DNA of 64,000 nucleotides, taken from the NCBI GenBank assembly GCA_950295325.1, contig OX485805.1:21563501-21627500 (forward strand), written 5' to 3'. The DNA is from Polytrichum commune (lineage: Eukaryota > Streptophyta > Polytrichopsida > Polytrichales > Polytrichaceae). The position numbers and the translations under genes were made by a program. Below, piece by piece: positions 420-58,489 of the stretch (position 1 is the first letter of the stretch; each line of letters begins with the position of its first letter). Below the pieces are notes generated by a model. It made no database searches and had not been told where the DNA came from. It saw nothing but the letters and a program-made list of their open reading frames with translations.

Positions 420-2020
420 GAAGTGTAGGCATTGATGAGGACATCAATCTCCTTTAGTGGGGGAGAGACGCTAGTAGCACACTTAGCTTCGAGGATAATC
501 GCTCCACAACATGTACTTGTTCTTTGGCTTGAGGGAATAAAGTCCAAACTTTAGTGGTGCAAAGAGAAAAGTATGAGATGAGGTCCTAGTCTTGTACTTG
601 TGCTTGGTTAGTAGAAGAGGGAGAATAGACATGCCAAACTAGGTTGGGTAAGCCGAGTAATTGGGGGCCATGGCTTGGAGGGGCCTTGGATAACGGCACG
701 GCCTCCATGGGCTTTGGCCCATTGTGAGGCCATAGTTGCCTAGTATGGTTCGGGTTGTTGTAGTGTTGCTCCGGCAACGCAAGGATCAACATAAGATGGG
801 ACTTCCATGGATGGAAGTCTACATTCGGGAATTGGTTACCGATCAAGGGGTGAGTCCCAAAATCAAAGTAGGAGGGTTGGTTCCCCTCCTATGACCTATA
901 TGGTCCGGGGTGAGAGGAGCTAACCATTAGCATGGCGGTATGCGAAGGGTTAGCGACTCGTAACCTTTGCTAGAATTGAAAATTGGCAAGATTGTTAAGG
1001 GGCCTAGCAAGGGTTGCGATAGAGGTCCCCTCACTCTACCACTTCTCGGCGGTGGATGCAGCCTCGGCCGTGGACTACTCCCGGGACGTCGACGTCGACG
1101 ACGGTGTTGTCAACAGCCCGCCCCCCAGGGTTGTCCCCCGCGCGTTCGCCCCGTCGCCCTCCCTCCTCTCCAAGGAGTAGCGGACGCTCAACGTGCCCTT
1201 CTTTGTCCCTAAACCCATATTCACCGTTGCTTTCCTCTTTGTTTCCGCGTGCCAAGTGGTTTACGAGCGCCCATCCCAAACCACCCTTCCTCATTTTTCC
1301 CACTCCGTTCTTATTATTATCTTCCTATGGCGTTTTTTGGCAGGTGGCTCCCCGCTCGCTTGGTGGCCAACCCTCCTCGACTTCGTCATTGCCAAGGCAC
1401 GCCCTCAAGGCCGCATCTTCCGAGTCCGATCGTTGTCTGGCCCTCCGGGGAAGCGCAAGACGTTCCCTTTCGCAAACGCCCTCGTATTCTACTTATAATA
1501 CCACCTCGTACAATTCGGGAGCGCGTCCTGAAATATGCAAGAACGACACATATTCCGGTCCAAGCAACACACAAGGATACAGTCGTGGGCCTGAGAATTT
1601 TAGAGCCATAGAGGCCGCCAAAAAAAAGGACTTAGCCGCAAAAAAAAAATAGTGGGACTACAAACATCTATTTCAAACGTAGTAACGGAAGGTAGTGCTT
1701 GGTTCTCTATAGGCTATGAATTTCTCCAATACATTGATGGTATTTCCATTATATTTGTATTTCGACCCCATTTAATATATTCAATTTGCAATTGTTGTCC
1801 TCATACTCCCTTCCATCAGCATCGATTTCTTATTTCATACGCAAATGTTCTCATGTATGCTTCATATTTGTTTCCACTTACATTCACTTTATCCGATAAT
1901 TATATGCAAAACCTTATATATGGGATTTTTATGCTGTCATTATTGGTCCAAATTTGAAATTTGCGGCCTTAATAAGTCTCAAAATCATCAAAAAGTCTCC
2001 AATTAACGAATATAGTGTTA
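420..2020. other. Intergenic, possible LTR remnant and unrecognised GC-rich stretch
   Basis: The first 500 bases probably include the eroded 3' LTR of the gypsy element. From about 1020 to 1650 the sequence is GC-rich and open in more than one frame, including a proline/serine-rich plus-strand frame ending in a lysine-rich tail at 1652. No domain or paralogue is recognisable, and the low-complexity composition argues against a confident gene call. From about 1655 the DNA becomes AT-rich with no coding signal. Confidence 0.4.
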
Positions 2021-2300
2021 CATGCTTTTTTGACGGTTTCACTTTGTGAATGAAATCCAAGCAATTGCTTATTTATTTGATGAAAGTGAACATATATATT
2101 GAATTTGGGACCTTGAAAGTGAAGTGCACTCAATATGAGATTTGTGGATAAGTGGCCTTCAAAAATGCAAAAACAATAGTATTTTCGAAGTCGGGCGGGC
2201 GGGCAGCAATTTTCGGTCGGGTCCAGAAAATCTGACATGCGGCAGAAATATGACAGGCGGCTGACAGAATATTCCTCCCCCAAAGAGTTCGTGGGGGGAC
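2020..2300 (+). repeat. Dispersed repeat, single arm of the foldback-type element (copy 1)
   Basis: The same sequence reappears in reverse complement at about 6553-6840, and its AT-rich part reappears in forward orientation at about 7490-7668. The last 100 bases are GC-rich and end in a run of G followed by C-rich text close to 2300. They are shared only with the 6.55-kb copy. The repeat ends about 155 bases upstream of the start codon of the HAD-terpene cyclase gene, so it may supply or border its promoter. Confidence 0.7.
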
Positions 2301-2455: not shown

Positions 2456-5053
2456 ATGGAAGTGCCTGAGCCCTGCGGAATGCCCCATGCAACGATGAGT
2501 ACTGCAAATTTAGTTGATAGCCTTGCGAGTGCTGCTACTGCTGGCATTCCATTTCTTACCTGCAGCAATGGCCAATTCAAGAATGTGTGCTTCGACATTG
2601 GCGGGGTGCTGCTTGTGCCGAACCTGGACATGGTAGGCTCGACATTGTCACCCTCTCTGTTTAAACGAATGCTTCGAAGCTATGCGTGGCTCCAGTACCA
2701 CGAGGGCAGGCTCTCGTGGACTGAAGCCCGGCGCCGGCTGGCCCTCGAGATGAACCAATTACGAGATCACCATTGCAACGAAGCCTCAGTGCAAGCGATT
2801 CTTGACGGTGCCCGAGCTTCCCTGCAGCCGGTGACGGAATTCGTGCGGCTTGTCAACGCGTTACACGCCACGGGCAAGCTGAAGCTGTTCTGCATGACGA
2901 ACGCCGCGAAGGAGGATCACGATGACATCCTCGCACGGTTTCCGGACGTGTTTCGAAAGTTCGACCGGATCTTCTACTCGGCCGCCGTGGGACTTCGGAA
3001 ACCCAGCTTCGGGTTCTTCGAGCACGCCTTGCGCGAGATGGCGTGCGAGGCGTCGGAAACGGTGTTTGTGGACGACACGATCCAGAATGTGGTGGCCGCC
3101 GAGTCATTAGGGTTCACCGGTGTTCTCGTGCGCTCTCATGATGAAGAAGGCGTGAAAGAGGCCGTGAATCTCGTTGTGTATCATCTTCGAAGCGATGAGG
3201 AGAAGTGGGCGGCAGCCGCGGGATACTTGTCGAGTCTGCGAGGTTTAGGACCTGTGGTGGAGAAATGCCCCTCGCTTACTTCGGACGGCCTTCGAGTGCC
3301 GGTCCATTTCGACCACTTTGTGGTCGCGGAGCTTTTGGGGGACCCGGGCTTCCTTCCCATGCACCAAGCGCCTGTGTCCGGGACGCTCAACTTTTTCCCT
3401 CCCATGGAACGACTGAACCAGAGAGACCCAAATACCAATGCTGTGACGCATAAAAGCTTCCCCGACGACCTCGACACCACCTCCACCGCATTGTCTGTTT
3501 TGCACAAATTCTCCAAAGTGGACATGGACATAATCCATGTTGTCTTGGACAAAATGGTAGACGCACAGAACGGTGACGGTATTTTCCAGGTCAGACGCAT
3601 TATTAACTCTTTGATGCAATTTCATGGATTCCCTGTTCACGATTCATGCCGAGGTACCTCCAATTTGAGTTTATGAGGACATGATGGATTGTATAGTCTT
3701 TGCAGATCTGATCATTAATTAATTATGTCAGGATCGGTTGGCTACGCACATGCACAGCGTTGTATTTCACTGTTGTCCCATGATCCAGTGCAACTATCGT
3801 CCCAAGCAATGCAAGCAAATAAATGGGAGAGAGTCAGTCATGAGACGTCAGAGCATTTCCTTTTGAGAAGAAGTGTGGTAAACTGTGATCGGCCTACGTC
3901 CAAGTCAAAAATTTAAGGTCCACGTTAACATGCTATCAGCTACCCACTTCCTATTATGGAATGAAATACCATGGTGATATTGGTTGCAACTCAATGGATC
4001 TTTGTGGCAGGTGGATGACTGATCTTGTCTACAAGGATAACAGTCTAGCTTGCCTCATACCTATGCACGTCATGAGCCAATTCTAATCAGAGATTTTGGG
4101 TAACATCGGTCAGCATCCAAGTGTTTCCAAGTCCAATCGTTTGCATGTTGATATCTTTTGGTTTTCCTTTATTAATTTAGAGTATGCTCTATAGATTCCT
4201 CTATAATGATTGTCAATTTGAATCCAGTCTTGAACCTGAACCAATCATTTCTCAAACTCAACCGGATCATCGGTAACTAGCGGTCGGATCTCTCCTCGTT
4301 CGTAGCTCCCAGTAATCAACAACACACATATTTAACAGAACTAATCTAAATGTCAATTTAATATCACAGCAGTCTTGGAGACCCGTAATATCAAGCACCT
4401 GTTAGCAATCTGAATCTGCCCCGTCCGTAATTATCAGTACGTATCATGCTCGAGTGACCAAAATTACAATGCTGTTTTTGTTGAACCAACATCATACGTA
4501 TAATTTAATTCTGCTTCTTATGATCTGCCAGACTTACTTTGACTCAACGCGGCCAAGGGTAGATGCGGTCTGTGTAGCCAATATCTGCTACCTGTTCCGC
4601 TTAGCCGGCCGAGTGGTAGATGTGAAGAAAAGCGAAGAGTTTCTCTACAATGTGTTGAACAGCGAGGCCTATTTACGGGGCAGTCTGTACTATCCGCTGC
4701 CGGAAACGTTTCTGTGTCAGCTAGCTCGCCTCACGCACAAATTCAAGGAGCACTTTGAGAGCATGGGCATGGCCAAGTTGTTGGCGGAGAAAGTGGGCAA
4801 GCGCGTGGGACTGCCAGGGACTGCTTTGGCTCTCGCAATGAGACTGCTTGCTTGCGACATGTGTGGGGTGAAGAACGTCATCGACCGACAGCAATTGGCA
4901 CGGCTGCAAAATGTGGATGGATCGTGGGACGTTTGCCCCTTTTACAGCTACAATGACCCTACAAGTTGGTGGGGGAACGAGATGACAACGACGGCGTATG
5001 CTGCTGCTGTGCTCCAAGAATGCCATTTGGAAACTGGAAGCTTGGTCAACTGA
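2456..5053 (+). CDS. HAD-like hydrolase / terpene cyclase fusion (DxDTT class II, drimane-synthase-like)
   Basis: Two exons, 2456-3589 and 4532-5053, joined in phase 0 across a 942-base intron, give 551 aa. I start at the ATG at 2456; the frame upstream opens only with TTG. The N-terminal half is a HAD fold of subfamily IA: motif I FDIGG at residues 46-50 (nucleophile Asp47), motif II Thr148-Asn149, motif III Lys182, motif IV FVDDT with Asp206-Asp207. The second half resembles a terpene-cyclase beta domain: DLDTT at residues 338-342 (the DxDTT acid motif), TYFDSTRPRVDAVC at 379-392 and a QW-like QNVDGSW at 504-510. This order is that of fungal HAD-terpene cyclases such as AstC and of bacterial bifunctional drimenol synthases. 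The expected substrate is farnesyl diphosphate, cyclised by protonation. No plastid transit peptide is obvious. Exons are GC-rich against AT-rich flanks, consistent with acquisition from a microbe, but this is inference. Confidence 0.85.
3590..4531 (+). other. Single intron of the HAD-terpene cyclase gene, containing a dispersed repeat
   Basis: The donor follows ATTTTCCAG and reads GTCAGA; the acceptor is CTGCCAG just before the ACT codon of the TYFDSTRP block. Both exons are in phase 0 and the join restores the family alignment. The segment at about 4110-4310 matches about 14285-14490 (shared phrases include GTGTTTCCAAGTCCAA and CTCAACC), so part of the intron is a genome repeat. Confidence 0.7.
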
Positions 5054-6552: not shown

Positions 6553-6840
6553 ACGTTAAGTTCCCCCCACGAACTTTTCAGGGGAGGAATATTCGGGCAG
6601 GGACAACCGCCCGTCAGATTTTCTGGACCTGACTGAAAACTGTTGCCCACCTGCCTGACTTCAACTATTGTCCTTGCATTCTTGAAAGCCACTTATCCAC
6701 AAATCCCATATTGAGTGCACTTCATTTTTAGGGTCCCAAATCCAATATATATGTTCACTTCCATTGAGTAAATAAGCAATTGATTGTATTTCATTTTCAA
6801 AGTGAAACCGCCAATAAAACATGTAATTCACTTGGAAGTC
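6553..6840 (-). repeat. Dispersed repeat, inverted copy of the 2.0-2.3 kb repeat (copy 2)
   Basis: The reverse complement of this segment matches 2020-2300 over its length, including the GC-rich end with the G-run. Together the two copies form an inverted pair around the HAD-terpene cyclase gene. The AT-rich part, from about 6652, is also the left arm of the foldback element. Confidence 0.7.
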
Positions 6841-7668
6841 TAAAATATTACAAAATCCTCATTAGCACTGAGGTTATAATTTTTGTGACTTACCAATTAA
6901 AAGGATTTTGTCATTCTAAAATGGAACTAAAATTAATGATTTAATTTTATATGTTGAAAATTATAGTTTAATTAATACCTTCTACTATCACAAAGTATTC
7001 ATATGCATTTAAATTATTTAAGTGTGATTGAATGTAACTAAGTCTAATTGATTCTGATTAATCCTAACCAATCCTAATTAAATCAAAAAAATGCTTACCA
7101 AATTATTTAATCATAATTAATTATAAATTAGATTTATTGGAGTTAATTCCATTAAATCATGATTAATTCCAATAAGTAAATTTTATTATTAATTAGGCTT
7201 AATTATTTTGGTTAACATGATTTCTGATTTAATTGGGCTTAATTAGAATTAATCAAGATTAAACAGAATTTGTTAGAATTATTTGCATTCAATCACACTT
7301 AACTAGTTTAAATGCATATGAAAACTTTGTGATAGTAGAAGGTATTACCTATAAAATATTAAAATATTAAAATAAATCATTAATTTTAGTTCCATTTTAG
7401 AATGGTAAAGACCCTTTCAATTGTAAGTCACAAAAATTATAACCTCAGTGCTAATGAGGATTTCGTGATATTTTTAACTTCCAAGTTAATTACATGTTTT
7501 ATTGGCAGTTTCATTTTGTAAATAAAATCCAATTAATTTTTTATTTATTCAATGGAAATGAACATACATATTGGATTTGGGGCCTTGAAAATGATGTGCA
7601 CTCAATATGAGTTTTGTGGATAAGTGGCCTTTAAGAGTGCAAAGACAATAGTTTTTTCGAAGTCAGGT
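6652..7668. mobile_element. Foldback (long inverted-repeat) element, about 1 kb, non-coding
   Basis: The left arm (about 6652-7034) and the right arm (about 7286-7668) are reverse complements of each other with scattered mismatches. Anchors include CACTTATCCACAAA against its complement near 7614-7627, CTTCTACTATCACAAAG against its complement near 7327-7343, and the inner AGTGTGATTGAATG pair. The central 250 bases are AT-rich and weakly palindromic. There is no open frame, so movement would depend on enzymes supplied elsewhere. The target-site duplication was not resolved. Confidence 0.75.
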
Positions 7669-18900: not shown

Positions 18901-19566
18901 CCTATAATACACTTTCCATTTGAAAAATCTCCCCAGACACTGTTGTAGAAATAGCTGTGAAATTGAGTACTGAATGCATAGAGTCTTTACGTTGGATGGA
19001 TGACGGGTTCGCTTGTATACGATGATTCCCTCCCATCTAGAGTTGATTGTTTGCAATCAAGATTCTGAAACCCTGATTGTAAATTTGATTAGCAGGTCGA
19101 TCGTCATTTTCTCCTTCTGGAGACATTGACGAACCTGATGAGAGTACTCCCTCGCCACAAACATCAAACACAATGAAAAACATCTCAAACTCTCACATGC
19201 TAAATTTCAATGCCATGTCAATCACCAATTGAATTGGCATTGAGGTGAGGTTTGGAAGGTACAATAAATTCCATTGCATTAACACATCTATACTCAATGC
19301 CAACTCAATCGACAACAAAATTAGCATTGAATTATTCATCCATTGATTTGATACTATAAACACACTAGAAAATTTGGAATTTGAAATAATAGATGATTGA
19401 GTCAATATTAAGCTTTCCAGCTATTGATTTGGTGCTGTGAACATATTGGATTTTTTTGAAATATTATGAAACAATACTAAGTTGACACAAAATATAAGAA
19501 ATATTCAATGCAAACTTAGCATCTACTCAACAACAGTAAGAGTGCAGACTAGGCTATGCATCTTGC

Positions 19567-22240
19567 TCAAAACTTAAAGGAGTTTATAAAAAAAAAGCCT
19601 TCCTTGCTAAAATTCGGAAGCACATGAATGGCTTTAAGAATATTTTGAACATCAAGAATCATGTAAGATTCACACTTTCCTACGTTACTCTTGTTCCTTG
19701 CTTTACTAATTTGAAACTTAGTTTTAGGCCATATGAGTTGGGAACATTCAACTAGCCTACTAAGTTGAGTGGTAGGAACTTCTTCATACATTCTAGGAAA
19801 TGCTAAATCTTTAACAACTCGATTTTGGACTTCATCTTCAAAAGACACTTTGAAAATCAATCGAAGTTGACCATAATAGGTCAATTCAGACTCACCAGGT
19901 GCCTCGATCTGAATGGCAACACTGCTGAACCATGGTGAACCAAAAAATTTGCTTGTTGCTCATACATATTATGGCATGCTACCAAAGCAGTCACCAGGAC
20001 CGGCAGGGATGGCGATAGAAGTGAAAACATGAAGCACCTGTTCATGTCAAGAAATTAATCATCACCCAAACATGGATCATCCTAATAAAAGAAAAATTTT
20101 AATTAGCAAAAATTGCAAACTAAATACTTCAATTATAGCAAAGCTACATATAATAACATTGAACCGGTGTAAAGCATACCTCTCCACCTGTGAAATTGTT
20201 TTCAACTTTGAAGGTATTAAAAGTTTCATAGAAATTGGTTTGTAGCTGTGGTTGCCCATGAATGAGATTTTGAGCACTCCTGGATACAAAAAGTTGCGTG
20301 GACTCAAATGAAAATCCAAAAGCTGGATCCAACCATGAACTCTGCAAGTTGACTTTTGCTCCCCATAAAACATTCAAACCTGATTCCACAGCCTTCAAAC
20401 CCACAATACATTAAATAAATACCAGTCAAATTTGGAAACCGCTCTAGCTTTTATAATAACAAATGCCACACTTTAGCCAACTTCATACTCAAGACCAATA
20501 ATGACTTTCTGAACAATGATAGAATAAACCATATGATTGAAAACTTACTTGGTCTAGTGAAGTATATTTCTCTTTCTCTCTAGAGTTATCAAGCCCCTCC
20601 ATAGTGTCTTGCATCTTCCATAAGGCAACAAGTCTTTGATTATGTCGGGCAATTTGAGGAGTAGCTTGCCTCTTATTGCTACTTTTGTATCCAGCCTTCA
20701 TCAAAGTTGTATGCATTTGTTCATACATATTGGTATTATACTCCCATGGAAGTCCAGATCAGCAGATACAATCATTAAAATGTGACATGGCATGAATTTT
20801 CACTGTGTTAAATCCTGATTTTTGCCATTTCAACATGGCTCTCTTCATAGCTTGTACAGACCTGATTAGCCAAAGACATTTGAAGATTATCAATTTGTTA
20901 CTAAAAAATTAAAACACCTAGAACTTAATTCCATTAAACCTCAATTCCGTAAAATGGCCTTCCATGTGCCATTTGGAAGAGCATATGTGCAATTTTGGCA
21001 TCCGTTGAGAAACATTGTACCTTGAAAAACCTCCCAAAACCTTATAATTTTATTGACTTTTTGTACCCCAAAACATGCCATTTTGGCATTATAAAGCCGT
21101 TTCAACGGAATTGAGTATATTTCTTACAATCAAATTGTTTCATTTCTAAAAAACCTGAATTGCTAACAATATGACATGACCATAGCAAAAAAAACCAAAA
21201 CATACCTTATCATAAGCTCATCCATTTTGGCCAATGAATCTTGTGTGTGTTTTGGACTACGAGTAGCAACCTTGTACCATTGTAGAAACAATACAAAGGC
21301 TCTAATAACATCATCTTTGTAGATCCCGACAAGGCACAAAACAATCACCTGAAAATGATACAACAATAACAAAAACTTCAATACCAAAATGATATTCACT
21401 AACAAAATTTTTAGAAAGATGTTCAAAGTCCATGAAGGTAGTAAAAAACAAAAGCAAACCTGCATAATTGCTCGATGCTCAAACCCTGCAAAGTTTGCAT
21501 TTGATCCAAAGTATGCCCCCTTATCAGTTCCTAGAATCCTGGAAAAATAATAAATAAAAGTATCAATTAACAAACAACCAAACAATTATCATGTTTTTGA
21601 ATTGAAAACAATTTATTCAGAATCATACATTTTCTACAAAAAAAAAATGCAAATATGACATATTAATAAATTCAAGATAAAACAAACTTTAAATTAGGAA
21701 AATTCTAAGTAAATTAATGATATTTCACCCAAATAATTCTAGGGATATGAAATAAACACCTAAAATGAGCATAACGGGCCTCCTTTTTTATGACAAGTAG
21801 GCGTCGATCAAGCTCTTTGATTGCCCTTGAGTGCATAATATCACCATCACTTGCCATAGATCTCAAAATTCCTATAAGCATCTTGAATATACCAACATCT
21901 GTTTGATGGAGAACATCAACTTGAATGGCCAAGTAAGGATTGCCAAACTCAGTGTTTCCACCATTGAATCCCCAAAGAGCACACTACAATAAAACAAAGG
22001 AACTTATTTAGACCAAAATAGTCAAAGTACCATATTGGAAGTACCAAATCCATTGGAGAAAACATTGAATTATTTGAACACTTACAGGGATTGGATGCAA
22101 TGACCATTGCTTGGAGAGGGCAGCCACATCTTTCTTATCTCTTGTTTCCATCATGGCTTCGTACACCTCTTGCATATTTTTCTCTATGCGTACTGAATTT
22201 TTTTGATGAACATCTCGTAAAGAATCCTTTCCACACAAGC
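19567..22240 (-). pseudogene. Plavaka-type transposase, broken
   Basis: Minus-strand exons, in order: about 22238-22086, 21983-21760, 21538-21460, 21348-21206, 20861-20549, about 20391-20180 and 20037-19567. Phases match at the joins checked. Diagnostic text includes VDVLHQTDVGIFKMLIGIL, ELDRRLLVIKKEARYAHFR, then TDKGAYFGSNANFAGFEHR, then MYEQMHTTLMKAGYKSSNKR, and near the end SELTYYGQLRLIF and HVLPNF. This matches the Plavaka transposase group (CACTA relatives) seen in fungi and in mosses. In-frame stops occur at 20761-20759 (TGA), 19971-19969 (TAA) and 19962-19960 (TGA). Both TGAs stand where the family has arginine, as CGA-to-TGA decay would give. The N-terminal part, including any zinc finger, was not found. 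Confidence 0.7.
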
Positions 22241-22244
22241 AGAT

Positions 22245-23460
22245 GCTACAAGGAAATTTCCCCTGCTAATTTGAGAAGTTATTGACCTTTGGAGGTGAGC
22301 CACATGCGGTTCATTTTCTTCAAATTGGCTTGCTTTCGGCAGATGCATGGAATCCTTTCAGCTTGCCTTCCAAGCTAGTAGGAACTTACAATTGTAATGC
22401 TTAAGTTGCTTTGACCAACGGAAACTTCAAAGAGCATCATTTAGCTGGATTATTCTCTGGTTTTTGCTGAAGCTCCCTTACCCCTAAATATGAGTGTGTT
22501 ATTTGAACTTGGTTGAATGACTTTTGCTTGTTAGATCTACTATTTGTTTAATCAGAATCAATGCTTGTCATGTGGGTTTAAGAAATTCACATCTTATCTT
22601 ATCTTATCTGTAGTTGTGCTTCACGTCGGAAATTATCTTCACTTCTATGCCAAGCACAAATCAACCAGTGCAATTCTGGATTGTCCGCAGCACTTACTTA
22701 CTTTTTGTCCGGCCACCAATGACGCCTTAGTTCAAATAATGTGTGAGAGAGTAACAAGAAAGAAGCATTGACACATGCCATTCACACGATTTATGTAACG
22801 AGACTCTCTTTAAAGATGTGCTTGAAAGTATTATATGGTTTTACCGGCGTAATTTATACAATGATAAGCATAAATAAGGTGAAAATTGTGAAAACAGTGT
22901 TTGTGAGGATTTCATAAATGTTGTGTTTAAGCAGTCGTCCTAGAAATGACGTTGGAAGTCTGTGATAATGGTTGCAGGTTTCCACTTCGAAGATTCAGCT
23001 TCAATCTCAGCCTCCACGGCAGACGGCGCAAAGTTCCAAAACCTTTGTTTGAGGTTCATTTTCATTTTACATAGAAACTTCTAAGATTTACAAAATTCAT
23101 AGATTCGTGTAGAGTTTTTGTCTGTAGAGTTTTTGTCTGTAGAGTCTCTATTTGTAGGTGTGTTCTCATTCCCCGACTCCCCGAGTGGCCTCTTGGTGTG
23201 GCCTCTTGGTGTTGCCACAGACGTTTGGGTAAAAGTTAAGGTTGACAGTGAAATTCATATTAAGATATCTTCAAATGCGTTTTTCATTGCTTAGAGTTGC
23301 AACTATATCAACGTTGCCAATCACTCAAACTATGATGTTCGAGATGTGCCAAAAATTGTGTAATGCAATTTTGTGATTCTACATTCTGTAGGTCTTGTTT
23401 TCTAGGCCTCTTAAATATCATTGTTGGGCCTACGTTTCTGTAATTCTTTGATGTCCTGCA
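22245..23460. other. Central region between the divergent transposon genes
   Basis: No open frame with coding character was found. This is where the 5' ends and a bidirectional promoter of the two transposon genes would lie. A short direct duplication of the phrase GTAGAGTTTTTGTCT sits at about 23109-23143. Confidence 0.35.
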
Positions 23461-48395: not shown

Positions 48396-49898
48396 TTCTT
48401 GAAAGCTCCAACATATTTTGATCCTATATGATTACATGTTTCAAAGACAAAGCATAGCCATGCTTGAAGTGATGAAGCAACTAAGAAGAATTAAGGACAT
48501 GCAACTACTAGGTAACACAAGAAAGACTGCATTGATGACATTCATTGTCCAATGCATCCTTCAACTTAGTTTATTTTAATGGTTATGATTTTCCAAACCA
48601 TGATTAGCTTAATGCATATGATCTAGTAGCATGGTCCCAACCCCAATTCTTTTAATTTTGTCTCTAGGTTCCATACCACTCATTGCCCTGTGCTCTCATA
48701 TTGGTTGTTGCTATTTAAGTTATAAGTATTTAGGATCTCCCTAGGCCAAGGTATGTGACGATGTTGTGAGCACTTCCAACTCCACATACAATTTTGGACG
48801 TTAGATCAAATCAAGAATCGTCTCATTCAATTAACAATTGTAGTTCACAAAGATTGTCATTCAAGTAAGAACAAGAGTTGAGATGGAAACTATAAGAAGT
48901 CAAGGTTGAGATAGAAGTTAGAAGAAGTTGAGATAGAAGTTCCCATCGTTCTAACTATTGAGTCAAGAACGGCGTCCACACTTTCAACACATAAGTCTAA
49001 TCTCATTGTACCATGTGTGACTTTGGCGTATGTTCACGATTCTAAGCCTTGCCATACACCACTCACAAGTGATGTGCGGGCTCAGAGATCTCAGACACAT
49101 GTAATAAATACATATATAAGATTTTAAAGAATGATAAATGCATGAATACATGCCCTTCCCAAATACGTTGTTAATATATGTCAATTGAGTCCCACCGAAC
49201 TAAATTAATTCTCTTACCAACTCAACCAAAATTAAGATCCATAGACTACATAAAGTCTCTATGCATTTTCATCTTCCACGAAACTTTACCCCATGCGCCC
49301 TATGATTCTCGGGTGGAGAAACTCGGCCTCTCGCTTTAGCTACTTACCCTTCTCCTCTTGGACAAACCCAGGGCTGACAACCCCACGGGGCACGCCGCGG
49401 ACGCGCGGCTGCGTCCGTCAGTACTTTCTATGCTCCTGGTCCTGCGCGCCTCGCCCTGCAATGCCCGTCATCGTCGTTGATGCTTCAAGGTTGCTGCAAC
49501 GCTAAGGTCCCCCCCGGGGCCTTGAATGCGATCACAAGAAAGCATCGCACTTCATAGCGGTAGATATCATCATGAAAGCATGCAAGCGGCCATGGTTTCG
49601 CACAGATTCATCACAGTGCAATCAAGATGCCGTGTCGAGCCTGCTACTTACCACAGCTCATAAATTTACTGTAGCCATTTCTAGCCTGCCGCTCGTGGAT
49701 GACATCGCAGTGGCACACTCTCATTTTGGCATTGCTATTTCCGGTGTCTTCGAGCGTGGGCTGCATTGCTGTTTAGCTGAGCCTGTTGCGCCGGGGATGC
49801 CAACCTTGCTGCTGCTGCTGCTGAGGGGTTATTCCTTCGCGGCGCTGTGATCGGAGGTTTCGTCCAGATAGCCATGAGAGGGAGGAATCTGTGATGAA
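48396..49898. other. Intergenic and probable promoter/5' leader of the kelch gene
   Basis: To about 49.25 kb the DNA is AT-rich with no gene. From about 49.29 kb GC content rises and several short frames open (for example a CTG-repeat encoding poly-leucine near 49808-49822). This suits a 5' untranslated region and promoter of the gene starting at 49899. No TATA box was assigned. Confidence 0.4.
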
Positions 49899-52800
49899 AT
49901 GGCAATGGCGGGATCATTGGAGGCGCGCGAGGGTTCGGGTTACAGCGGCGGGGGTTTGAGTGATGCGGAGGAGGCGGCTGTGTTGCGAATGAAGGAATCT
50001 GTGAGTTGTCAGGGTGTAGAAAGAGGCGGCCATATGGAGGAAGGAGGGGGCCAGGGTTCGGACGAAGGTTTTAGCGATGTTTGGAGGGAGAACGATCGCC
50101 CTGGTAGAGAGCTTAATGGCGCCGGTGGTGTTGCAGAAGACGAAGAAGAGAGCGTATTAGTGCGAGAAAATGGCATGGCATTGGAGAGCGAGGATGTGGA
50201 GGAGGAGGAGGAGTCACCTGCTGTTATTAATTTTAGAGAGGATCAGCACGAAGCATCAGGGAGTCCTGCTGTTGTAACGAGCGACGAAACTCCTCACGAA
50301 AATGTAGCTTATGTAGAGGAGAAGAGGAACGGGGAAAACGCTGATGATGAGAAGTCTTCCTCTCCTTTGAGAGAGACGCCTGATGTTATTGTGAGCAGTC
50401 AGGGAAAGGAAAATGGCAAGGGAGGGTTTATAGCATCGTTCCTGCGGAGAGGTCGAAAAGGTGGTCTTGGCGGTGACGAAGGGAAGCGAGATGGGTTCTC
50501 GAGAGGTTTTTCGAAAGTGCGGTATACCTATCAAAGCTCCGGTGTCCGGAAGACTATGGTGATGACACCCGAGGGTATGGCTACCGAGGAGGAGGAACAA
50601 ATGAGGCCGGATATTACAACAAGCAGGCCTAGTGTAGACGAGGAGGAGATAACTCCAGCAGCGGAGTGCAACGCTAACTATAGCCCCCCCGCACACTCAT
50701 TGCATGAAGATGATGACAGGGGTGTGTTCAAGGATGCGATTGGAGACGAACGTGGAGCAGAAAGCTCTGAGGACAATGGGGGTGTATTTTATGATGCCAA
50801 GGAAAATGGTAGTGAGGGTGCAGTATCGAACGGCAGTTTTAGTGCCAGTGACAGGCATGGGGGAATGGAAGACTCTAATAATGAGGGCAGCAGTAGAATG
50901 ATGATGGAAACAGCAGATGTGGATGTTAATGTGTTGAGTGGAAGGCAAGTGGAGACGAAGCATTCCGTGTCATCAAGAAAGAAAAAGTCTTTTGTAGAGA
51001 AAGGGAGGGCGCCGCCTGATGGGTTTTGTAGCGGAAGAGATTTGATGATGAATGCGGATTCGCTCATTGGAGCAGAGAGAGCTCACGACTCCAAGCGGGA
51101 TGGATATATCACCTCTCGACTATTCGCGAAGCCGCTAGCTGGCAGGGTATTTTCTTCTATTCTACTTTTAGACCCTTTTTCCGCTAATCTTTAGTTCGTG
51201 AAGCATCGTGATGAAAGCGCCACAGGTTGTTGGATCCAGCAGTCAGTCACAAGCGAGGATCTTCCACGTCCCTTCCGGATCAGCTACCAGAAAACTAAGT
51301 CCGCAGCCTTCTCATCTTACTCTCTCGAATTGAAGACAATTTAATGTTCCAGTTTCCAATCTTGGACAAACGCCTTTGCAGTAGTTTAAGGGTGGGATTA
51401 CATTAGCGTCCGGGGTTCAAGAAAACTTGGGGTCACCCTCTTAATGAACCTTACTTTGGGATTAATGAGTGGACTCATGATTGGACCCAAGCTTGAAGAT
51501 TGGTTTCTCAAACTTGGAGGAGTATTTTTCTTAAGTGCGAACCGCCGAAAGTTGGCTGGAAGTGATGCCCCGTTAGCGCCACTTCAAATTTTCATACCTT
51601 GGGCCTGGACCCTGTTCAAGTCCAAGACCCCAATGAGAACTTCTTGGGTCTAAATTTTTGCTTTCGACAAATAAGATCGCTCGATTTTGGAGTGTCTGCT
51701 CTTGGACCCTAGAGTAAACCCAGTTTAAGTTTTATGGCCGCCGTATCCACGTCTTCATCGAGATGAGCGAACGTTTAGGAAAGCATGCAGGAAAAGTGAG
51801 CCTGAGAGTTTATTATTAACAACCCAGTGAAGGGCGATTTGCGCAGTGCACAGATGTCCAGTGCAACCTGTGATTTTTGACGAATCAATGAACAAAAGTG
51901 AGTGCAAGTTATAAGATTCCGCCAGCTATGATAGCAGGGTTTACGGAGTGTTCTGTGCATTAGAAAGATAGTGGGCCTTGCATTTAATGTGTTCAAAGTT
52001 CCTCAATTCAGTCTTCAGGTGTTGGCTGATGTTGTGCAACTTCAAACATACTCGAACTGCTCAAACAAATCGATAACTGACGAATGGTTTTGTGACCACT
52101 TTCATCTGGCCCAACCTCGGAACTCCTTGACGTCATGTCCTTGCCATTGGAGTTGGGCGTTGTTTTCCTTAACCTGCGAGAGAACGTATGGAAAAATTCT
52201 CGAAACTACAGTGTGGCAATACTCTTATGTGCTGTAGTTGGGTATATCTTTGACCTACATTTTATGTATTCCAAGGTCAATTCGGACGATTTGCAAAACT
52301 TCACTTTGAATTCTCATCCAGTATTTTTGATATCAGGATGACTTTTTGAGCAATTTCAGCACACCGTCACCAAATGTGGGGGCTCAAGCCGATAACAAAC
52401 TAGGTTCAATGGGCAGCTTTGAAATCACATTTGACGATGTTGGAGATGCGCAAGGCTGGAACAATGTGTATCCACGTGGAGAGAAACCTGAACCCCGTTA
52501 CTTTGTGAGGTCCCTCTCAACTTGCATTGTGTTCCACCGCCCAGTATTCTGGCAATACTGACTACTGTTGAGGACTCTTTTGCATGATCATCTGTGTGAG
52601 TCTTAAATGATTTTAGGTGATATTCACTGACAGTATTGAAATCCATGCTGTAGTGCTTCTCACTCTTTTGCACATTCTTAGCTATTAATCAAATATGCTA
52701 GAGCATTATACACACACGTGGGTTGTACATTCTATGAAGCCAGTGTGGTGGAAAGTGTCACCCTTCGGTGACAGGAAATGATTTGGGATTCTTGCAGCAT

Positions 52801-55800
52801 GCAGCAGCTGTGGTGGGACGGAAGATGGTCGTGGCAGGTGGTCAAACTGCATCTGGACCTAGCAATGATCTGAAGGTATCTCCATTTGCTTCTCAGGAAG
52901 TTGTGTTGCATTGTGATCGGGTTGGTGGACCTCCTATCTCTTCAAATGTATTTATTTTGAAACCAGAGTATATGCTATGGATATGCAGATGCTGCATCTT
53001 GGTCGAATGACATGGTCAGAATTGGGGAGAGGAGAAGCTCCAGTCAAGGGACAAGTTGGAAGTGGGAAATCTGGGCCTCTGGAAATTCCTTCATGCAGGG
53101 GTCATAGCCTGGTAAGCAGAAGTCCTGCTTTTCTTACTGTGATTTTGTGGTGGATTCCACTTTATGTTCACGGCCAATATCCTATTCCAGGTTCTATATT
53201 GGCCACAATCAGTTCTATATTGGCTATTTATTGTTCTGGGCTGATGATTAGCTTTGAACTACTAGCTGATAAAAGTCAGTGGGGGAATGATGGAAGCTGG
53301 TCATTTTCAAACATGATGTATGTGATGGTCTGATGCTATTGATCGACTTTTCACAATGTTAAACAATGTTCCAGTTGCACCTTGTGTTTGTTGGATATAT
53401 TCCCACCAAGTCTTTTAGGACCTACTCTGTATCTGTTGTCTATGTGCTGCTTGAAGTATTTCTGTTCATTTCTGACATGCAATCTGTTTGAGTGCTGTCG
53501 TGCAGATTTCTTGGGGAAAAACTGTTCTTTTAGTTGGTGGAGATTTAAATCCCTCATCTGATAGAATTGAAGGTAAATCATCTGATTATATAATGGTTAA
53601 AATATGGTAATGTCTGTGTACACATCTCTTGAATTAATGGACTTTTTTGATTTTGGAATTTGAAGAAGAATTATTTACACTCCTTCAGTGCTCACATACA
53701 TGGATGAACCAATAGCTATTGCAGTATTTGATGGACTTATCCTCTCACCATGTGCGATGCACTTTCAAAATTCCTGAGAGGAAGCCACCTAAAGCTCAAC
53801 TATTTTGGTCTAGCAGTCAGAATAAGAGAAATCTTGTCCATCAGATTCTTTGGTAACATGTTTGTGGTTTTTTACACAATGGCAGTGTGGTCTTTTGATT
53901 TGGAGACTGGGTGTTGGACAAAAATCACAGCGAAAGGAGAAGTTCCGGTACAAGCTCTCTTTCAAGCAATAATTACGACTCTGTCTCTTCCTCACTCTTT
54001 GCATAAAGAACCACATAGCACGAACAGGACTTGAACACTGACTCTCATTGAGGACCAACCTTTCTTAGTGATTCACCAGAAATCACATGTCATTGTTTTG
54101 AAATCATGTCCACAATATTAGCTTAGATGGGTATCTGGTTCAGGTTTGCCTTTTGAAGTATGTGTTGGTTGGATGAAGACTTTCTGCATGGGTGAATTGC
54201 TTCTGTAAATGATTACTGTGTTCCCTATTTAGGACTTGTTGATAAGTTTCATTTGCCTGCTTCTCTTGGTGCCCGTTTTGACCAATTTATAGGCTATAAG
54301 AATCCGGTATTGCATAGCTGTTATGTGAGTAATTGTATTCTGTTGCAGTCAGCAAGAAGTGGTCAAAGTGTGACAAGAGCAGGGAGCATACTTATCATGT
54401 TTGGAGGTGAAAATGCAAAGGGTCACAAACTGAACGACCTTCACATCCTTGACCTAAAGTCTCTGATGTGGCTGCCCTTGCACACTGCGTAAGTTTGACA
54501 ACCTTCTTTCTTGCCGTCCTTAAGCTCTCTGGCTTCCTTGCCAAACCGGATTTTAAAGACAAAGTTGAAACCATGGTTATGTTTGCAGTAATATGAGGAT
54601 GTGTGTTCACCTGAAGCAGATTATGTATGCATCTGGTTGCAACATCTGTAGTTTGTAATGGTGTTATTAGGTTCCACTGTAAACTTTTTGATTTAATTAG
54701 TACCATTTATAAAATAAATAAAATTTTTGCCCCTTCCTTCACTGTGTGTGCGACACTATAAATGATTTTCTCTTATTTGGGTTGCTAATTATGTGAGTGA
54801 TTATGGTGCAGAGGTCCTGGTCCTTCACCACGAGCTAGACACTGTGCGGCAATGTACGATGATCGCTTTTTATTGATATTTGGGGGAGCATCGAAGTCTA
54901 AGTCTCTCAGTGATGTATTTGCCCTTGATTTTGAAACGGTGAGTTGTTTCTAAGAAAGATTGTCCTCTCTCCGCGATGAGCTCATCTATTGGTCCTAAAT
55001 TCCAGGTCCATTTTAAAAATACAATATGCATCTTTTGTGGTCTCCTGGAGATTCATCTTCTGTCTATTCTAAACAATTCAATATCTCTCTCTAAGGAGAA
55101 AGGCATGTTAAACCTTCTGAGGTCATGAGGGCACAGTTTGTCTGCAATATATTTTGGAGAACAGAGACATCTTATTGCGTAGGCAAACCGTGATAAACTT
55201 CTGACATATGTATGTGGATGTACACAGATGGAGTGGTCTAAGATGAAAACAAAGGGCACTACCCCTTCCCCCAGGTCAGGGCATGCTGGTGTCTTGGTGG
55301 GTGACAAGTGGTATATTGCTGGTGGAGAAAATCGTGGTGTTGGTGAGCTCATGACTACCCTTGCTAAGGATAGATTTGCTGGATTTACTTAGGCAAGCTT
55401 GATTACACTGCATAATGATGTCTGTCATCATATATTTTACCCCCATGCCAACTCGTGATGTATCTGATGCAGGAGTGGCGGATACACTGATGTTTGATGT
55501 TGGGAAATTAACCTGGTCTGTGGTTGCTACAACCACCCCTAATACAGCTGTTGCCAATCAGGTCCAACACGACCATTGAATGTCTTTGTAGATAGTTCAT
55601 GTGTCCACTCTTTGTGGTTGATATTGCTTATCCTTGATTAGAGTTTAAGTGATGAAGAAAATTAAAAGGCAGTGACTTTTTCTAAAGTGTGGACATAGTT
55701 TTACTATGTCCTCAATTGACAATGTCTATAGGTGGAAATTTACTTTCACTTTTCCTGTACTTTGTATACTGGGTTTGACTTGTGGAGGCTTCAAAAAATT

Positions 55801-58489
55801 CTTTCTTGTTCAGACTGTAAATTGAATGGATTGTATCTTTTCAGGGACTAAGCTTGGTACTTGTTCAACGGAAGGAGAAAACGATGCTGGTTGCGTTTGG
55901 GGGGAAGGGATCTGAACTCTGTAATCAGGTATTTGCATCATTCTCAAAGCAAATAGTATCATTGAAGTGGTTATGAAACTGATAGATCCATTTTCCTATA
56001 AACTGCTGATGTACAGCTATATTGTCTTTGGTAGAGGCACTTAAAAATGCATCAATATTCTAAATGATTGGACAACCAGCACATGATTCATGGAATGAAG
56101 TGTGCATGTGTGATGTGTGGACATGCAGGTGCAAGTCTTGTATATAATGCCGCTGGATCATGTCAAGCCTATGAGTCCTTTGGGAGGCAGCAATGTGGAC
56201 TTGAGTGAGGCACTACCAAATGCTGCTGCAGCCTTTCCAACCCTCTCTGGGGCAGGGCTACCTTGTGCTTGTGTAGATGTTGCCAAAACCCATTTGTATC
56301 CTGCTGCTGGGCAACATTATGGAGGACATTCTTCACCTGGTAACTCACCATCTACAGAGCAGTATATGGATGCTTCACCTGGCCTTGTCCCATTACGGAA
56401 GCGGTATGCAGTTGTTCAAGATGGAAGCAGGAACTATAGTGTACGTCAGCAACCTGAAGAAATTCTATCAAGAGTTCTTAGGGAGACTTCATCACATGAA
56501 AGTACACCCTCACATCATTTTAAGGTTTGTAATTTCCTGCTTCAATTTTGTAATTTTGTCTCCAATGTGACATTTCCATAGCTTCTGTGTTTGTCCTTGC
56601 TTTTAAAATTAGTATTACTAGGAGAGTAGATTTTTTTCTAGTTCCAGCCATATCATGTCATCACTCCTGAACATCTCATTGTCTAGGATTCCATATGCTG
56701 GAATACTATCGTAGTGTAAGAGGACTAAGTTTCCTTGGATCCTCATCCAAGTTATTTGAAGCTTATATGCATGAAATGGTTTGTGTGCAGCCATATGTTT
56801 GCTTCAATTGTCGTATTAGGATTCTATAAATTAGGCACAAGAAAATCTGTATATGCTGTAGGAGTTTGTGTTGGATACATTGTGCTGTTACTTCACCAAT
56901 ATTTCTGAATTATTCTGCTTGGAGCAGGCCTCTGATTCGTTACATCAAGACCTGGAGATCAGGTTTAGTGACATGGAAGCAGGCTCAAGATTGGCCCCCA
57001 TTGCCACCCATAGCTCGAAGACAATGAGAAGGCCTGGAGGATCATCTAGGAGAAAAGAGTCCTTTGACTCTAATCTTTCATCTGTATTGGAAAGTGCAGA
57101 ATATGTGGAAACCTCAAGAAGGGGAACAGGTGATGCTGATGCCAATACTCGGCTTTGGAGACCCCAAACCAATGACAGGTCTGAGGGCTATTACACAAGT
57201 TCAGGGAGGACAACTTGGGAAAGGGAAGAGTCCACTGATAGTCAGCTCCTTGCAGACCTGCAGGATGCTACAACCATGGAAAGGCGAATACATCTGATCA
57301 ATAAATTTAGACAGAGTTTTGAAATGAAACTTGCAGCTTCTGTACGGAAGAATGAAGTAACTGAAGGTCGTCTAGCAACTGCTCTCAAAGGTAAAGAGGA
57401 AGCTGAGAAGAGTCTTGCAGCAGCTTTGAAAAGCAGACAAAAGGCTGAAGGAAAGCTTGCAGCTGCAGTGAAGTTGCAAATGGAGCTCAAAGAAAGGGTT
57501 GTAGGTGCAGAGCAGGCACAAGAGGATTCCAACAACCTGTGCAATGTGGTTCACTCTGAGAATCTCCGGTTGGAACACGATCTTGCCTTTCTTAAGGCCG
57601 TCCTTGAAGATACTCAAAAGGTATAGATGTATACATCTTATGACTCCTCCTTGGTAAGAAAGGCCTTCATCTTGTTAGCAGAATCAAATGCATGACTGCT
57701 TTGCCCAGTGCATTTCTGAAGAATACTTTCAGATTAATCTGTCACCTGTTTGTTCCTATCCTGTGACCTAGTGCTGTATTATATGACGCTGGGTACACTG
57801 TAGTGGTCTTCTGCAGTTATAATCTTCCTGGTGCAAACATTTGAGTAGAGAAAGTATTGAGATATGTCACATCTTCTTTAGTTACATGTACAAATTTATC
57901 TTTCTAATTTGTTATCATTATTTTGGTGTAGATCTTATCTGTTGGTCCACATTGGGTTGAAAGTATCTTGACTCTGGCCATTAATTTCTAGCTCCAAGAT
58001 TAATTGAAAGAAATTCACGTTATAATGGTCTCCAGGTAATGATGTGCACTTGTGTATATTTCCATGTTCATGTTGCATGTAGATTGTTGAGTACTGAAGT
58101 TCTATATTACAGGAGTTGCACTCGACCCGCAGCGTGCTTGCTACAGAACGGTCAAGGTCATTCCAGTTACAGGTAAGTATGGTCACATACTCCATGACTA
58201 ATATGTAAAGAATGTTACAAATCACTTGTTTTAGCAATCTCTCTGATCAACTGTAAGTTTTGTGGTGTATTTCTAGTGGTATTGGTTCTAGCATCAAAAC
58301 AAAAGGGAACTTGCCGCATACTTCACAGTTACAAGTTGTTTGTTTAATTCTTGATTCTTCTGATGGATTCAGATGGAGGTTTTTGATCTGAAGAAAAAAC
58401 TCCCACCAACAACTACGGCAATAGAGAAACTTCCCTCTACACATTCTGCCGAGCTGTCATCAGCTACAGTTCTTACAAACGTAGACTAA
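49899..58489 (+). CDS. Kelch-repeat protein with long acidic N-terminus and C-terminal coiled coil
   Basis: Fifteen exons: 49899-51146, 52337-52504, 52798-52875, 52989-53111, 53506-53572, 53886-53947, 54349-54488, 54812-54938, 55228-55342, 55473-55561, 55845-55928, 56129-56524, 56928-57620, 58113-58172 and 58373-58489. All phases fit and the sum is 1188 aa. Residues 1-416 (exon 1) are acidic, glycine/serine-rich and probably disordered, with a basic patch near FLRRGRKGG. Kelch blades follow to about 767, each ending in a GG-plus-NDL pattern (MVVAGGQTASGPSNDL, then LIMFGGENAKGHKLNDLHIL, then LLIFGGASKSKSLSDV). Residues about 1015-1150 form a coiled coil with three 14-residue repeats (LATALKGKEEAEK type). 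The kelch-plus-coiled-coil order resembles plant ACBP4/5-like proteins, but there is no acyl-CoA-binding domain. Likely a scaffold. The join of exon 1 to exon 2 is the least certain step. Confidence 0.85.

Follow-up and report, generated by a model that had tools for sequence, protein, structure and literature searches.

Whether a moss can encode a terpene cyclase fused to a HAD phosphatase, and what such an enzyme would make, is the question raised by one gene near the start of a 64,000-nucleotide stretch of the Polytrichum commune genome (assembly GCA_950295325.1, contig OX485805.1, positions 21,563,501 to 21,627,500 of the forward strand), hereafter called the window. The gene is a real, intact, chromosomal HAD-TC-beta gene of the moss, a term denoting an N-terminal HAD-like domain joined in one chain to a class II terpene cyclase (TC) beta domain. 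Its function is strongly suggested, and product, expression, and direction of transfer are inferred. We consider it probable that the protein converts farnesyl diphosphate to a drimane-type diphosphate and then removes phosphate, and that the gene reflects an ancestral gain whose source was a fungus, a bacterium, or a lineage yet to be sampled. This reading is supported by matches to two structurally solved enzymes, AstC of Aspergillus oryzae (astellolide pathway, PDB 22tz) and AsDMS, the drimenol synthase of Aquimarina spongiae (9m7d-f, 9mhs, and 9mlo), by an Asp at the nucleophile position, and by retention of six of six phosphatase and six of seven cyclization residues of AsDMS. The gene suggests a known kind of enzyme in a new kingdom and a microbe-type drimane route gained by some mosses.

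Gene structure and domain architecture

The start codon lies at position 2456 and the TGA stop ends at 5053, precisely where the earlier note had placed the gene (Table 1). Joining the two exons (GC content 0.55, and 0.65 at third codon positions, GC3) yields 551 amino acids with zero stops, and translation may begin at M1, M9, or M14. The splice sites read CAG/GTCAGA after position 3589 and CTGCCAG/ before position 4532. External support for the intron comes from an exon end common to four metagenome open reading frames (ORFs) and from splice sites kept in both paralogues. The four ORFs (P0002, P0004, P0005, and P0006) read through the same exon 1 end into closely similar intron-encoded peptide, which is how prokaryotic gene callers would be expected to treat a plant gene, and a fifth (P0003) ends shortly beyond that point; each paralogue retains both the donor and the acceptor.

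The two halves of the protein were recognized in different ways. Pfam places a HAD domain (PF00702) at residues 42-219 (E 1.4e-11; 45.6 bits vs a cutoff of 26.4), and NCBIfam assigns exon 1 to HAD-IA variant 3 (TIGR01509; 46.2 bits vs a cutoff of 29.4), with the nucleophile, Ser/Thr, Lys, and acidic metal pair of such phosphatases found as D47, T148, K182, D206, and D207. The Pfam scan of the protein returned no terpene-cyclase or terpene-synthase model at E ≤ 1; the cyclase half is recognized by its phmmer alignment to the solved structures of AstC and AsDMS. In this search of all solved chains, with matches taken up to E 1, AstC aligned in a single stretch over residues 41-543 (E 1.6e-52) and AsDMS (9mhs) in two stretches (E 1.1e-48). 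The top four distinct sequences of the 36 matched are two constructs each of AstC and AsDMS (E 1.6e-52 to 5.3e-32), far ahead of stand-alone HADs (E 1.6e-8). One chain carries an N-terminal HAD-like domain, a TC beta domain, and a DxDT(T) motif with both the acid and the base Asp, as is characteristic of HAD-TC-beta enzymes. The earlier note had described just this fusion, with all four HAD motifs, DLDTT, an RPRVD block, a QW-like motif, and a frame uninterrupted across an intron. Each element was recovered, motif I being D-I-G-G instead of the textbook DxD, with Gly as its second residue just as in AsDMS (D-L-G), which is active. Grouping solely with non-cyclase HADs, an outcome that the note had named beforehand as refuting, did not occur.

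Plant class II cyclases such as CPS have an alpha-beta-gamma architecture and a DxDD motif and lack a HAD domain. The window protein would share their acid-initiated class II chemistry but differs in architecture, in motif, and in its HAD domain, and the Pfam domains and alpha-beta-gamma layout of canonical plant terpene synthases are absent from it. MTPSL (microbial terpene synthase-like) enzymes are class I alpha-domain proteins; the class I alpha domain with its DDxxD-type and NSE motifs is likewise missing here, and the C-terminal half aligns to the class II beta domains of AstC and AsDMS. The MTPSL enzymes of bryophytes, microbe-type terpene synthases in non-seed plants, are credited to horizontal transfer in the available text of PMC12890914 and PMC12448838, two works from 2025-2026 about bryophyte genes of microbial derivation. 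The window gene resembles them as a microbe-type terpene enzyme in a non-seed plant but encodes a class II beta domain plus a phosphatase.

Table 1. Positions of the HAD-TC-beta gene, its motifs, and an adjacent repeat in the window
Feature	Position	Strand	Remarks
Exon 1	2456..3589	+	Residues 1-378, comprising an N-terminal extension, the HAD-IA phosphatase domain, a linker, and the start of the beta domain, DLDTT included
Intron	3590..4531	+	942 bp, GT-AG, 40% GC
Exon 2	4532..5053	+	Residues 379-551: remaining class II cyclase beta domain, stop TGA
HAD motif I, D47-I-G49-G	2594..2605	+	Nucleophile D47; aligned with D43-L44-G45 of AsDMS
HAD motif II, T148-N149	2897..2902	+	Aligned with S138-N139 of AsDMS
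HAD motif III, K182	2999..3001	+	Aligned with K171 of AsDMS
HAD motif IV, D206-D207	3071..3076	+	Metal site; aligned with D195-D196 of AsDMS
DLDTT, residues 338-342	3467..3481	+	Proposed roles: D340 as proton donor and D338 as base; T341 corresponds to AstC T274
Y380...RPRVD (385-389)	4535..4564	+	Diphosphate-binding block; Y373, R378, and R380 of AsDMS
Y431-Y432	4688..4693	+	Y426 and catalytic Y427 of AsDMS
QNVDGSW, residues 504-510	4907..4927	+	QW-like; fits QxxxGxW, a form of the QW motif
Pocket Y516, Y518, W525	4943..4972	+	Product-setting; F509, A511, and F518 in AsDMS; Y, F, and A in AncC
Arm of dispersed foldback-type repeat	2018..2195	+	261 bp upstream of the start codon

Phosphatase and cyclase sites

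Active-site residues were compared in an 18-row alignment of the window protein with AsDMS (L002) and other relatives. The AsDMS variants D43A, G45A, N139A, K171A, D195A, and D196A each eliminate phosphatase activity (PMC12365925), and all six residues are identical in the window protein (D47, G49, N149, K182, D206, and D207). Such conservation is not automatic, since a Streptomyces protein (P0015) keeps none of the six, and Aspergillus navahoensis P0009 and AstC keep three each (N, K, and the first metal Asp in AstC). According to the available text of PMC13244436, AstC carries Glu at the nucleophile site and has no phosphatase activity, its HAD domain being inactive yet shaping the product. 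That AstC is also the best single match lends something to an alternative that we regard as unlikely, namely that the cyclase is active, the HAD domain merely caps the site, and other phosphatases handle the drimane diphosphate. However, AstC departs from the phosphatase set at its Glu nucleophile and at two more of the six sites, whereas the window protein has Asp at the nucleophile position and keeps all six. T208 and Q210 replace the Lys and Glu of the DDKxE stretch, but AsDMS K197D stays active (PMC12365925).

A bifunctional enzyme, with both domains catalytic, is our preferred reading, and the cyclase half can be compared in the same way. Changes at D331, D333, Y427, Y373, Y426, and Y319 of AsDMS eliminate drimenol, and R378A lowers it by 96%; loss of F281 costs 87%, and F518A costs 73% (PMC12365925). 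Six of the seven cyclization-critical residues are identical in the window protein (D338, D340, Y432, Y380, Y431, and R385). The seventh, Y319, stands opposite F314 in the 18-row table, and a three-sequence alignment sets F314 opposite another AsDMS residue; the pairing, which would give F as in the albicanol synthase AncC, is uncertain. AsDMS Y319F yields drimenol plus albicanol (PMC12365925). The diphosphate-binding Tyr/Arg set and the catalytic Tyr are all kept (Y380, R385, R387, Y431, and Y432), F281 is retained as F285, and F518 corresponds to W525. At the sites that differ between AsDMS and AncC (319, 509, 511, and 518), the window protein has F (uncertain), Y, Y, and W, a pocket that appears fungus-like at 319 and 509, aromatic as in the fungal enzymes at 511, and distinguished by W at 518, which no fungal or bacterial row has there. 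AstC T274A, equivalent to T341, eliminates product (PMC13244436). Among the metagenome relatives, P0003 and P0004 have DLDTT, P0002 has DLDVT, and P0005 has DLDNT, and these naturally occurring DLDTT, DLDVT, and DLDNT forms allow the base-positioning threonine to be readily compared.

Of the enzymes set beside the window protein, AstC shares the order of HAD and TC-beta domains, DxDTT, an aromatic pocket, and Tyr at the Y516 and Y518 sites. It is 29% identical and differs, beyond its Glu nucleophile and lack of phosphatase activity, in carrying F opposite Y380 and Y431, K opposite R385, and I opposite W525. AsDMS shares the architecture and the residue sets given above but is 26% identical overall (36% over the aligned C-terminal piece), and its R425, R513, A511, and F518 are replaced by L430, D520, Y518, and W525. 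AncC and AacA, fungal albicanol and albicanyl monophosphate synthases set beside the window protein by description, not sequence, are alike in having Y at the AsDMS 509 site, probably F at 319 (AncC), and an expected active HAD; AncC has A468 where the window protein has W525.

Every chemical step of the mechanism that we propose is carried over from work on AsDMS and AstC, the moss sequence contributing the residues alone. The beta domain would bind farnesyl diphosphate through Y380, R385, R387, and Y431, and D340, positioned by Y432 and N395, would protonate its terminal double bond. The ensuing cascade would close two rings to give a drimane cation, the final proton being accepted by D338 aided by T341, or by water. 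The drimane diphosphate would then move on to a HAD domain, probably inside a dimer, and there the D47 nucleophile, with Mg2+ on D206/D207, would strip phosphate stepwise to leave a monophosphate or the free alcohol.

Relatives and origin of the moss gene

A search of 5.8 billion proteins (predicted proteins only, ranked by shared five-residue words) gave eight matches to the window protein at E ≤ 0.001 among 7999 best candidates scored. These are five metagenome proteins (84-98% identity, exon 1 only), which we infer to derive from moss DNA, one full-length metagenome protein (P0007, 50%), and two fungal proteins. P0007 (JGI metagenome, 514 amino acids, 7.6-kb contig) is 50% identical over 92% and shares the IPFLSC-like and GTLNFFPP blocks and the Y/Y/W pocket. 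Unlike the window gene, it is encoded in a single open frame without an intron and reads D-E-I-D-S-T in place of D-D-L-D-T-T, the proposed base Asp being Glu. A search seeded with P0007 (8000 candidates scored) listed 11 proteins: itself, three moss-like sequences, five from four fungi (Artomyces, Amylostereum, Cyathus, and Irpex), one from Streptomyces, and one unnamed. GTDB 220 was scanned with one peptide pattern around DxDTT, which is blind to members with another motif such as Streptomyces P0015. Of 14 stretches retrieved, 6 encode relatives, all from Aquimarina or Flavivirga at 25-27% identity, with the AsDMS locus (L002, D331) included; within the DxDTT surroundings to which this single pattern is limited, no closer bacterial donor was found. 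Viral contigs, in which close relatives only were sought, yielded none.

The protein search, within its word-sharing reach across predicted proteins, also returned no protein from Ceratodon, Physcomitrium, Sphagnum, Marchantia, Riccia, Calypogeia, seed plants, or ferns. Because the same collection does hold other proteins of these plants, the gene appears confined to part of the mosses. In a tree of 23 rows, the moss-type sequences and P0007 form a clade with support of 100/100; the flavobacterial rows group at 100/100 and the fungal rows at 83/91. Support is 35/2 for the branch on which moss joins Flavobacteria, long branches are flagged, and an approximately unbiased (AU) test does not reject fungi and moss as one clade (p 0.58). 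The moss, fungal, and flavobacterial groups are still separate in a tree of 14 full-length rows without Streptomyces. Stand-alone HADs and other cyclases are excluded from the rows, and the separation from those rests on the phmmer search of solved chains. The moss-type sequences with P0007 thus appear to be a third HAD-TC-beta lineage beside the fungal and flavobacterial ones.

This search and phylogeny, which the earlier note had proposed as a check, group the window protein with fungal and flavobacterial HAD-terpene cyclases, in line with its expectation. The note had further called the gene probably horizontally acquired. The patchy distribution makes horizontal acquisition into mosses likely rather than proved. 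The tree is compatible with a transfer out of fungi or out of a donor yet to be sampled; vertical descent, which would require the gene to have vanished from almost every other plant, accounts for the moss clade less easily. A donor did not emerge, the moss clade being nested in neither the fungal nor the flavobacterial clade. In the history that we favor, the gene would have entered an ancestor of some of the mosses and later acquired an intron and been duplicated on one chromosome.

A plant HAD-terpene cyclase is not described in the available text of the literature consulted, including PMC9128629 and PMC11397239, and mention in subscription or preprint sources elsewhere is possible. The word "haloacid" is absent from the available text of a 2026 bryophyte terpenoid review (PMC13364417), PMC12890914, and PMC12448838. 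Holders of HAD-TC-beta enzymes named in the accessible portions of PMC13244436 and PMC12365925 are fungi and bacteria only, and the plant drimenol synthases named in the former are class I enzymes. Drimenol itself accounts for 0.23% of the oil of the moss Plagiomnium acutum in a gas chromatography-mass spectrometry table with retention index (PMC9738176). With an intact gene on a moss chromosome, the HAD-TC-beta family would extend to a further kingdom and bryophytes would have a second, structurally unrelated microbe-type terpene route beside MTPSL; the gene would also be a candidate source for the drimenol reported in a moss. A more specific proposal is tentative, and we hold it possible rather than probable: that a third, independent HAD-TC-beta lineage in part of the mosses, acquired from a donor absent among named genomes, of which P0007 is the nearest trace, makes moss drimanes such as the Plagiomnium drimenol in place of a class I synthase, with W525 giving a product profile that differs from those of the fungal and bacterial enzymes.

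Paralogues, counter-evidence, and chromosomal setting

Several observations, drawn from the pocket, a structure model, the paralogues, and the neighborhood, weigh against a working drimane-type enzyme. In the pocket, W525 stands where the bacterial DMS rows have F and the fungal rows I, L, or V, with P0007 sharing W. At the L430 site, R is the residue of the DMS rows and of most fungal ones (P0012, P0015, and P0016 share L, and P0007 has C), and D520 takes the place of AsDMS R513. Because W525, L430, and D520 differ from the characterized enzymes, the product is not predictable beyond drimane-type. Alanine variants of AsDMS R425 and R513 are still active (PMC12365925). An active class II cyclase with a substrate or product other than drimane-type, such as geranylgeranyl diphosphate or a different ring closure, strikes us as improbable. 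W525 and L430 do change the pocket and the phosphate site, and identity to the tested enzymes compared is as low as the values given above for AstC and AsDMS; however, F285, F313, F335, Y516, and Y518 maintain the aromatic lining by which both enzymes hold the farnesyl chain.

Structure was predicted for P0007 rather than for the window protein itself. Built from a 19-row alignment with a predicted local distance difference test (pLDDT) of 88 and a predicted template modeling score (pTM) of 0.82, the model pairs an N-terminal domain of mixed alpha/beta type with a C-terminal domain made of helices. In favor of the HAD-TC-beta reading, its best structural matches are ten AsDMS chains (E 1.9e-29 to 2.1e-28), then HAD phosphatases such as YihX; AstC is absent among the 50 matches listed. 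The whole-chain TM-score to AsDMS is ~0.5 and the root mean square deviation ~19 Å, values that a different placement of the domains would produce.

A whole-genome protein search for copies, in which all seven candidates were scored, gave seven exon matches that make up three HAD-cyclase copies, all on the contig that holds the window (C3). Copy 2 (C3:15235516-15238114, minus strand; L040 and L043) lies 6.3 Mb from the window gene, copy 1. Its exons are 96% and 95% identical to those of copy 1. The intron, 946 bp long, is the same and the frame is intact, but its 22 substitutions include T341V, giving DLDVT, and F313L. Copy 3 (C3:21446836-21449422; L026), 119 kb upstream of copy 1 and with the same intron, is broken by two in-frame stops in exon 1 and a frameshift in exon 2 and has DLDVT as well. 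Only copy 1 keeps DLDTT together with every catalytic residue. Over 126 codons of exon 2, copy 3 is 99.2% identical to copy 1, but over exon 1 the figure is 93.6%, as if by gene conversion.

Since copies 2 and 3 carry DLDVT, while the matching AstC T274A change eliminates product, the family may be decaying in its host. Between copies 1 and 2, the nonsynonymous rate (dN) is 0.0196 and the synonymous rate (dS) 0.0442, a ratio of 0.44. Among 369 exon 1 codons, changes confined to one copy number 6 nonsynonymous and 5 synonymous in copy 1, 5 and 3 in copy 2, and 32 and 17 in copy 3. These values point to weak recent constraint, statistically open at such small counts. It seems unlikely that copy 1 is itself a decaying gene, one of three heading to loss with terpenoid production ended. 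The state of the other two copies, the dN/dS ratio, and the retroelements and repeats crowding the locus fit that picture, but copy 1 alone retains DLDTT with all catalytic residues, metagenome P0003 and P0004 keep DLDTT too, and its unique exon 1 changes contrast with those of the broken copy, although they are too few to decide. We continue to favor a functional copy 1.

In the neighborhood, a crude exact six-frame pattern, run without a positive control, detected no P450 or UGT motif either in the window or in 24 upstream pieces of 10 kb (240 kb). No gene cluster therefore supports a pathway, and a biosynthetic cluster was rejected on this result.

The window occupies 21.56-21.63 Mb of a 59.2-Mb contig in an assembly of 408 Mb in 64 contigs. 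About 47 kb from the HAD-cyclase gene, at 52409-57620, lies a multi-exon kelch gene with a coiled-coil-like tail, in which kelch Pfam models match three frames, one above the cutoff. A hand-spliced 692-residue model of it drew 576 protein matches, and among the best 120, which were listed, Ceratodon purpureus ranks first (71%), followed by Physcomitrium patens (69% and 65%) and an unnamed protein (65%). Also among those listed are Sphagnum (52-54% along the full model and 66% along 47% of its length), then Marchantia, Riccia, and Calypogeia (41-52%; Marchantia 44%), then seed plants and ferns. Taken by themselves, these identities mark the host as a moss, probably in Bryopsida and outside Ceratodon, Physcomitrium, and Sphagnum, which narrows the "plant" of the earlier note. 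A liverwort host, suggested by the large contigs and by the drimanes that liverworts make, was rejected because the kelch gene is closer to those of mosses. Fungal or bacterial contamination of the contig, another refuting outcome foreseen in the earlier note, or a misassembly, is very unlikely. In its favor, the GC3 of the HAD-cyclase gene (0.65) exceeds that of the kelch gene (0.37), but an open frame at 61445 in the window is likewise high (0.60). The position deep in a chromosome-scale contig, the moss kelch gene, the two paralogues with the same intron on the same contig, and the exon end common to four metagenome relatives stand against it, and contamination was rejected.

Repeats surround the gene. 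The foldback-type repeat of Table 1 has a nearly palindromic copy downstream of the gene, at 6560-7667, and another directly upstream of copy 2 (L040 2789-3410). Direct repeats of 328 bp, 99.4% identical, lie at L015 3751-4078 and window 692-1019. The interval that they enclose contains an integrase-like ORF and RNase H matches, and the repeats look like the ends of a young long terminal repeat (LTR) retrotransposon that finishes 1.4 kb upstream of the HAD-cyclase gene. Fragments on the minus strand at 19500-22300, without a Pfam match, resemble a Plavaka/CACTA-type transposase.

Pfam scans of 10 ORFs and five other stretches, a minor part of the window, gave matches above the cutoff for kelch alone, and Rfam and tRNA scans of the window found nothing. 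Exons at 61445-63385, with LTEENVEQVL... and ...VKLRLAGRFWHERSMVLARLANYLQKRIP, resemble a plastid NifU-like protein; neither of the two frames that were scanned matched a Pfam model. A GC-rich open frame of 438 residues at 49878-51194, also without a Pfam match, is perhaps one exon of an undescribed gene. Between 41945 and 48148, 0.5-kb repeats in both orientations, 88-91% alike, occur near 42.0, 46.0, 46.7, and 47.7 kb.

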